Below, piece after piece: positions 1-18,580 of a stretch of 38,627 nucleotides of DNA. Numbering within the stretch: the first letter of the stretch is position 1; every line of letters starts with the position of its first letter. The position numbers and the translations under genes were made by a program. The DNA comes from an uncultured Kiritimatiellota bacterium (GTDB taxonomy: Bacteria > Verrucomicrobiota > Kiritimatiellia > RFP12 > DVOR01), in the NCBI GenBank assembly GCA_944389545.1, contig CALXMT010000024.1, forward strand, positions 1-38,627, written 5' to 3'. A model generated the notes under the pieces. The model was not told the origin of the DNA, did not search any database, and saw only the letters and a list, made by a program, of their open reading frames with translations.

Positions 1-21
1 TATCGATCATGTGTAACACTC

Positions 22-1070
22 CACGCGGAGTGTACCATAAAAACACCTCTATCCACTAAAATTGGAGTAGAGCCAAACACTTGCATTCTCCACGAACGCT
101 TTCAATGTCCCACAATTTAGCGTTCCTGTCAACCCCACATCGCGTGATGGACACAAAAAGGGCGGGAACCAGACCGGAAGTCTCCTCCGACGAATCCAAT
201 AGAAGCGAACGGCCGACCAGTGGGTTTCTCGCCCTTAACGCCATCAGTGTCCAACAACCCGCCCCATGCGTCAACCTTACGACCTCGCCAGGCATTCACA
301 CCTCTGTGCCAAAACATCGCAATGACAGACGCTGAACCATCCCAGATTTCCTCTCAGGGACGATCCGTGCCTATAAAACAACGGACTGACCCGCCGCTCA
401 CGAGATGGTTCAGCGTCTGGCAATACTGTCGCACAACCCGAGAGGAAAGTCAACCATGCTAACCACTACTAGACCAATCCGGTACACACGCCACAACCGC
501 CTCGATGAATTCCTCTACATCCACACCATCCATGTGTCAGACATAAAAAGAGCGGATTGCACCCCGGAGGTGACCTCGCGCGACCCCAATGGGGACAACG
601 TTACAACCGGGGGACAATCCGCCCTTCGTGATTTCAATGTCCCACAATTTGACGTTCCTGTCAACCCCACGCCACATAACGAGTACAAAAAGGGCGGATG
701 CGAGTCCGGAAGTAACCTCGCGCGACCCTGAATGAACATCGCGCCGACCGGAGCGCATCACGCCCTTGACAACATCAGTGTCCCATAATCCGATACGTAC
801 GTCAACCCTGAGCACGGCAAATCCGCAATAACAGACGCGGACTGCGTCCCGGATTTCATATCGAGCCGATCCAAAGTCAAAGCGACAATGTAGTAGCCTT
901 CACCTCCGAGACGCAACCCGCGTCTACCCATACTGTCGCAAAATTCGGGGAAGAGTGTCAACACTGAATGAAACGGCGTTGGGAGTACTGAAAGTGGGAG
1001 ACGCGCCGGCTTTCACTTCATGGCCCGACCGTGAAACGGTTCGCTCCAGCCTCACCGACGCGTCTCCACG
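22..1070. repeat. Array of diverged long-hairpin units with conserved linkers
   Basis: This gene-free stretch holds six clear hairpins and a probable partial one at the left edge (about 22-93). Paired arms are 158-177 with 213-236, 326-345 with 401-420, 549-567 with 607-626, 690-709 with 748-767, 832-852 with 906-925, and 994-1010 with 1049-1068. Arm sequences differ between units (for example AGAGCGGATTG with CAATCCGCCCT, versus CAGACGCTGAACC with GGTTCAGCGTCTG) but remain complementary. Just inside the 5' arm each loop has a similar segment, roughly CGG-A-N-N-T, then CTC, then CGAYCC. Between hairpins a ~40-nt linker recurs with TGTCSCACAA followed by GTCAACC (95-136, 237-278, 420-458, 627-668, 768-810, 926-966). 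Short ORFs here overlap one another on both strands and resemble no protein. Function is unknown. Positions 1071-1317 show nothing recognisable beyond an AT-rich patch near 1180. Confidence 0.75.
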
Positions 1071-1317
1071 AGAAAAGGACAAATCCCCGCCTCTGGAAAT
1101 AAGGTAACATATGCCATCAACGAATTCAAATTCATCCAATCCTTTCTGTCCTTTATCGGCTTGGAGGGCCGTGCATGTCTATTATATATAAGGTAAGGGG
1201 TGGATGGCGAAGACGGCGAAAGGAAACAAAGCCATCAAGGAATCTATAACCCGAATTACCCCGCTTTTCGGCGAAGATTCTGTCTTCTAGACGGCACAGT
1301 GGGGAGGACCTCATGGC

Positions 1318-1465
1318 CCCTTAAATGGTCCTTTCTGAGACCCTATAGTGGTCCGAGGTCAACCACTATAGTGGTCGAGGGTGAGACCCTATAGTGGTCG
1401 GAGGCGAAACCCTTAAGGGTCCGCGAAAGACCCTTTTGGGGGACGATTGGAGACCCTTTGAGGGG
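1318..1465. repeat. Phased array of short palindromes (family R6)
   Basis: Six short palindromes recur every 22-23 bp, beginning near 1339, 1361, 1385, 1407, 1429 and 1452. The clearest are GACCCTATAGTGGTC, ACCACTATAGTGGT and ACCCTTAAGGGT. They lie directly upstream of the LolC promoter. A matching array in the opposite orientation occurs at 18466-18580, and a fragment sharing CCTTCTGAGACCC lies at 12213-12252. Confidence 0.75.
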
Positions 1466-1506
1466 GTGTTTGGATTCGCCTGTTTCTGTGAGGCGGGTGC
1501 TTATGG

Positions 1507-18244: not shown

Positions 18245-18465
18245 CAGGGTGACACACAATGATGAAACGCAATCAAAAGGAGCTTTCTCGCAGAGAGAAT
18301 CCTGCCTTTTACTTTGTCTTACGAATGAACGATGCAAATGTGACAGGGAAATGCAAAAATTTTCACGCCTCTGTCATTTTTCTTCGTATTTGCCGTTGTT
18401 TCCAGTCTTCGCCTTACCGTGAACGATGAAGCGATCAAGGGGGCGGAGAGGGAGGCTAAAGGGTG
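18245..18465 (-). ncRNA. Candidate small RNA gene ending at the 18209-18244 terminator
   Basis: This ~220-bp stretch is clearly more AT-rich than its surroundings, has no convincing ORF or dispersed repeat, and ends on the minus strand at a strong terminator. It contains an internal inverted repeat TGACAG with CTGTCA around 18341-18376, flanked by T and A runs. No known RNA family (tmRNA, SRP, RNase P, 6S) could be recognised by eye, and no confident promoter was found. The call rests on context and composition only. Confidence 0.35.
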
Positions 18466-18580
18466 TTTTCTGGACCACTAAGGGTTTCGACCTCGACCAC
18501 TATAGGGTCTCGACCCCGACCCCTATAGTGGTTGACCGCGGACCCCTATAGGGTCTCAGAAAGGGCCCTTTAAGGGGCGT
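18466..18580. repeat. Phased array of short palindromes (family R6), second copy
   Basis: Palindromic motifs begin at 18473, 18495, 18518 and 18541, a 22-23-bp spacing equal to that of the array at 1318-1465. Examples are GACCACTATAGGGTC and GACCCCTATAGTGGT. The array ends with GGGTCTCAGAAAGGGCCC, the reverse of the start of the first array. Confidence 0.7.

Follow-up and report, generated by a model that had tools for sequence, protein, structure and literature searches.

Several described systems resemble in part the element that is the subject of this work. In RNA-OUT of IS10 and in type I antitoxin RNAs, a strong promoter located opposite a mobile-element or toxin gene produces a short and stable hairpin RNA. 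In type III toxin-antitoxin (TA) systems an RNase toxin is paired with a folded RNA (ToxI), which is encoded at the toxin gene and contains repeats; ToxI is a short pseudoknot repeat, positioned upstream of ToxN and on the same strand. Integron attC sites have covarying palindromic arms and a conserved structure, and occur in arrays. We analysed a stretch of 38,627 nucleotides (hereafter the window), corresponding to contig C24 of G000, a metagenome-assembled genome (MAG) of 2.5 Mb from the genus Candidatus Spyradenecus. Its first thousand positions hold an array of long hairpins that we interpret, with moderate confidence, as genes for antisense or antitoxin-like hairpin small RNAs (sRNAs), read from the minus strand and descended from an element that lies inside the genes of polyvalent proteins.

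The elements of this array have in common with RNA-OUT and type I antitoxins the layout of an opposite-strand promoter and a hairpin; unlike those RNAs, they are found in the interdomain linkers of multi-module proteins and in orphan tandem arrays. What we propose shares with type III TA systems an RNase-like toxin, a folded RNA at its gene and the presence of repeats, but the elements are antisense and form a long hairpin, unlike ToxI. The likeness to attC consists in the covarying palindromic arms and in the arrays, whereas the R and L boxes are missing here and a conserved promoter is present instead. The genes that host the in-gene copies encode polyvalent proteins with LPD3, MuF-C and PBECR domains, such as those described by Iyer et al. 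(2017; PMC5512222); a search of the text of that paper gave 0 occurrences of antisense elements or promoters, and no description of the regulation of polyvalent proteins was found in the literature searched. HPnc5970 and HPnc6000 are given as antisense RNAs of Hp1116 in a table of a review (PMC8322730, citing Sharma et al., 2010) and, as far as this table goes, they are transcribed antisense to a mosaic polyvalent gene of the type found in the Helicobacter genes examined below; unlike here, there are no arrays, and the H. pylori phages tested are without the exact motif.

Seven units, U1 to U7, span about positions 95-1072 of the window. The initial annotation, which had read the array on the plus strand, placed its start at position 22, slightly too far to the left, and counted six clear units; the array itself holds, with five complete units (U2-U6), a U1 truncated on its left side and a hairpin without promoter, U7, that is probably a decayed unit, while the predicted promoters and hairpin RNAs lie on the minus strand. 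Since U1-U3 and U4-U6 are repeated at an offset of about 531 nt, with matching stretches 72-80% identical, part of the array stems from tandem duplication. The features are the following (z is the RNA folding z-score):

104-132, minus strand: U1 promoter TTGACAGGAACGCTAAATTGTGGGACATT; where the family hairpin would follow downstream there is other sequence, perhaps an insertion-element end
246-274, minus strand: U2 promoter, TTGACG-17-GACACT
155-236, minus strand: U2 hairpin, arms 217-236 and 158-177, T5 tail at 155-159; z not significant
425-453, minus strand: U3 promoter, TTGACT-17-GACAGT
326-419, minus strand: U3 hairpin, arms 401-419 and 326-344; z -5.0
636-664, minus strand: U4 promoter, TTGACA-17-GACATT
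545-627, minus strand: U4 hairpin, arms 607-627 and 547-567, T5 tail at 545-549; z -5.7
777-805, minus strand: U5 promoter, TTGACG-17-GACACT
687-767, minus strand: U5 hairpin, arms 748-767 and 690-709, T5 tail at 687-691; z -4.2
932-961, minus strand: U6 promoter, TTGACA-18-GACAGT
832-926, minus strand: U6 hairpin, arms 906-926 and 832-852; z -5.7
994-1069, minus strand: U7 hairpin, arms 1046-1069 and 994-1010, without recognisable promoter; z -3.5
519-668, plus strand: reading of U4 with intact frame, 44% amino acid identity to the linker of a polyvalent protein of the same genome (G000:C45)

The stretch between hairpins had been described as a conserved linker with TGTCSCACAA and GTCAACC. 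Both patches are real, and on the minus strand this linker is a predicted sigma-70-type promoter, GTCAACC and TGTCSCACAA being the reverse complements of a -35 box (TTGAC) and a -10 box (TGnGAYAsT), respectively. The two boxes are separated by a spacer of 17 nt (18 nt in U6) that is fixed in length and variable in sequence, and the hairpin begins a few bases downstream of the -10 box. About 46 matches to the promoter pattern were found in 17 genomes of the genus, with 0 matches to the reversed pattern used as a control. An exact longer core pattern occurred at six loci only among 84,980 species, and these match genomes of the genus. At the sequence level, each unit looks like a minimal hairpin sRNA gene, in which a predicted promoter immediately precedes a conserved RNA structure.

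The hairpins were analysed in a minus-strand alignment of nine sequences. Here 88% of the cells pair, and 11 of the 17 pairs and 23 cells are changed on both sides, a covariation that was reached by 0 of 500 shuffles; this result confirms that the array of covarying hairpins is real. When the partner was slid by 1-3 columns as a control, the covariation measures dropped sharply (3-6 pairs). The duplicates U3 and U6 retain all their pairs (16/16 and 17/17) with seven compensated, two-sided changes, and none of 20,000 simulations of independent drift matched this retention. The search of related genomes with a covariance model, which the initial annotation had recommended, did find homologous units: a model built without U3 and U6 recovers U6 at E=4.8e-6 and matches an intergenic copy in genome G011 at 1.9e-8, in which the loop is kept and the lower stem is different. 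Weak matches of covariance models outside the genus were treated as chance, because most are without the loop and promoter motifs. A T-run (TTTTT) ends U2, U4 and U5. The window gave 0 matches to Rfam at the gathering score and contains no tRNA. A folded molecule is the best reading of these data, and a repeated structured RNA was already among the alternatives of the initial annotation.

The best DNA relatives of the units lie antisense within large open reading frames (ORFs), the DNA of the U4 hairpin being 85% identical to one such copy (G008:C44). These ORFs encode polyvalent proteins with ART-PolyVal, LPD3, MuF_C, PBECR3, PBECR5 and zeta toxin domains, and the element is situated 90-230 nt downstream of LPD3 or MuF_C domains. 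To avoid circularity, the domains were located first, LPD3 and MuF_C by Pfam hidden Markov models (HMMs) in the genus, LPD3 alone in a second family within the order, and a promoter was called when a sigma-70-like score of at least 9 was found within 260 nt after the domain. An antisense promoter was present behind 20 of the 23 LPD3 or MuF_C modules of the genus and 16 of the 20 LPD3 modules of the second family, as compared to 11% and 14% of random control windows, respectively; on the sense strand, only 2 of 23 and 2 of 20 modules had one. The binomial p values of the antisense excess, about 1e-16 in the genus and 1e-10 in the second family, are optimistic, because the modules are related and not independent. 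The spacer of the module-linked promoters is nearly always 17 nt, and nine ORFs of the genus contained 18 antisense vs. 3 sense promoters. A hairpin starting 3-14 nt after the -10 box was enriched with respect to control positions (p=6e-8 in the genus, 9e-6 when the window family was left out, 9e-7 in the second family). The in-gene copies are therefore on the strand opposite a toxin-like gene, the window array itself being orphan; the Pfam HMMs gave no LPD3 or MuF_C match in the window's own genome.

The strand that encodes the protein was considered as well. In the genus, the coding strand under the element reads T[IV]xxPQxGxxVNP in a single phase. A conserved processing peptide of this sequence was rejected as the sole cause of the conservation, because the nucleotides stay the same where the residues do not, and because two frames are in use in Helicobacter. 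In fact, the linker of the second family reads, for instance, RISKILESVK, so that the residues differ and the promoter nucleotides recur. In the same family the codons under the -10 box carry a wobble A that is rare there (xTA is 11% of I/V/L codons and NCA is 13% of NCN), which is supporting and not independent evidence, because the promoter scan itself selects such codons. A second hairpin, antisense to the last LPD3 beta-hairpin (YSLELLEL), was observed in L122, L113, L118 and L052, in some cases with a T-run (GAGCGAG...CTCGCTC-TTTTT).

Relatives of LPD3 were also found in a second, unrelated phylum, in mosaic (HP1116/jhp1044-like) genes of Helicobacter prophages. In three of these genes (L217, L215 and L218) an extended -10 box, TGTGGTA[TG]AAT, occurs 16 times antisense and 0 times sense, mostly just behind LPD3 or PBECR domains. 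L217 has four sites, behind LPD3, LPD3, PBECR2 and PBECR1, and none behind its ParB domain; in L215 the sites are behind PBECR3, an apparent second PBECR3 (with one extra site near it), LPD3 and PBECR2, and none is behind ART. The motif occurs in two reading frames, which argues for selection at the DNA level.

With respect to the in-gene element, the window units read as orphan copies, in which the loss of the coding frame is frequent and both promoter and hairpin have outlasted it. The plus-strand frame has stops or frameshifts in U3, U5 and U6 and is open in U2, U4 and the C52 copy; despite this loss, promoters remain in U1-U6 and hairpins in U2-U7. Two other tandem groups were found, G000:C58 (L113, 537-1004), whose three promoters lie at intervals of about 220 nt, and G003:C16 (L114, 1635-2056), also with three promoters. 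Most of their units share 79-91% identity with elements located inside genes of other genomes, and some array loci, these two included, retain the C-terminal end of LPD3 only. The array gave no similarity to phage DNA, and viral contigs queried with the linker or with LPD3 gave no matches. The intergenic copy of G011 (G011:C8; L030, 1490-1636) is solitary, has a new lower stem and is flanked by direct repeats of 11-12 nt, AGGGGCCGTCAA, that might represent a target duplication; a corresponding empty site was not found.

On the whole, the identification of predicted promoter-hairpin RNA genes linked to these RNase-like modules is well supported at the sequence level, and regulation, antitoxin activity and immunity by the hairpin RNA are hypotheses. 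The promoter would fire a minus-strand RNA of roughly 70-100 nt, whose folding into a long hairpin would begin with its very first bases and which, in several units, would stop at the T-run. The units would descend from an element that occupies, in antisense orientation, the linker following RNase-like modules (LPD3 and MuF_C; PBECR in Helicobacter phages). Within the gene, the RNA would be antisense to the linker of the module and to the end of its coding region, and would most likely restrain the module, either by antisense silencing of the mRNA or as an RNA antitoxin that counteracts the RNase. As for the window array, it would be a store of orphan units, possibly working in trans when polyvalent effectors come in. 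From these comparisons we infer that the organism transcribes the units, that the RNA has a repressing or antitoxin activity and that the array has a role in trans.

A number of observations weigh against this interpretation. The unit promoters were missed by a generic sigma-70 scan of the window, since their -10 boxes differ from TATAAT. U2 folds no better than shuffles (z +0.4), the stem of the C52 copy is weak, the U3, U6, C45 and G008:C44 copies are without a T-run, and a loop of about 40 nt is unusual for an intrinsic terminator. As for in-gene hairpins outside the window family, their minimum folding energy is not below the GC-rich background and the stem-position score alone is enriched; the evidence for them is moderate, because the plain minimum-energy comparison shows no separation. 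In genes from the Planctomycetes-Verrucomicrobia-Chlamydiae (PVC) group, neither PBECR3 nor PBECR5 domains were seen to be followed by an antisense promoter. That LPD3 is an RNase finds no help in the comparison of its profile with MuF_C, which gave no match, or in its predicted structure, whose confidence is too low for use. In Helicobacter, the hairpin enrichment is weak (p=0.012), and the exact extended -10 motif is absent from the mosaic genes of the H. pylori phages 1961P, KHP30 and FrMEG235U, in which near variants such as TGTGGTAGGAT are found behind a PBECR1 module.

Three other explanations were weighed, and all fit less well. The first is that the array is decayed coding DNA, made of duplicated LPD3-linker remnants of a dead polyvalent gene, with an inherited palindromy and no present function. 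Evidence of decayed coding DNA was what the initial annotation had named as refuting its proposal, and in part it is there: the units are homologous to LPD3/MuF_C coding linkers, several frames are broken, LPD3 ends are truncated at several loci, and MAG contig ends and the contact with an insertion element suggest an unstable region. However, promoter and hairpin survive. U1-U6 all retain the two boxes, 17-18 nt apart, despite the broken frames, and the compensated changes between U3 and U6 are beyond what independent drift produced in the simulations. We consider decay alone unlikely.

Still less probable is a mobile palindromic element, similar to the Rickettsia palindromic element, inserting in frame into genes and between genes. 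Such an element would account for a palindrome with variable arms and for copies within ORFs, in an array and, once, in an intergenic position (G011:C8), but the in-gene copies are at one place, behind LPD3 or MuF_C, rather than scattered, and have a single phase in PVC genomes; moreover, no empty site could be demonstrated, because the neighbourhoods are not syntenic. Equally improbable are sites of single-strand DNA recombination in the linkers of mosaic genes, attC-like or serving module shuffling, with the hairpin acting as folded DNA: the covarying variable arms are like attC in form, polyvalent modules undergo reshuffling (PMC5512222) and a single phase in PVC genomes would preserve frames after exchange, but the attC boxes GTTRRRY and RYYYAAC are absent from the nine-unit alignment, the most constant part is a promoter and not a recombinase box, the Helicobacter copies are in two phases and, contrary to the integron-like or recombinase-site suggestion of the initial annotation, no association with a recombinase was seen, although none was specifically searched for.

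As regards the surroundings of the array, window 1-95 contains no unit and resembles the end of an insertion element; the same kind of end, ACACTTGCATTCTCCACG, adjoins the array here and is found in L013 around 10170. Further downstream of the U1 promoter there is a different short hairpin with a T-run. In the sister genome G003 the array begins at the position corresponding to window 652, its left half is gone and a remnant of an IS30-like transposase adjoins it, which suggests a deletion linked to an insertion sequence. The two genomes are nearly 100% identical up to about window 2050, and the near-identity of the G003 array is unusable as evidence of conservation, since the flanking sequence matches just as closely. 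Window 1317-1475, upstream of a MacB/FtsX gene, holds short repeats in tandem, each of about 23 nt and of the ACCCTATAGTGGTC type, and a similar sequence is present at window 18457-18578 and in G003.

A more general proposal, which we put forward tentatively and regard as rather doubtful, is an undescribed system of RNA-based control or immunity in which, in at least two phyla, RNase-like modules of phage polyvalent effectors carry their own antisense hairpin RNA gene in the linker that follows them, and tandem banks of orphan copies kept by bacteria neutralise the effectors that come in. A caution can be drawn for annotation, in that opposite-strand RNA genes can hide within conserved interdomain linkers. 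Phages and plasmids widely use polyvalent proteins as weapons, and a conserved antisense promoter followed by a hairpin behind RNase-like modules, in Kiritimatiellota/Lentisphaerota and in Helicobacter prophages, would be a common control element, with antisense silencing or an RNA antitoxin as the testable hypothesis. The orphan arrays, if this is true, would represent a new kind of RNA-based immunity or of escape from addiction.
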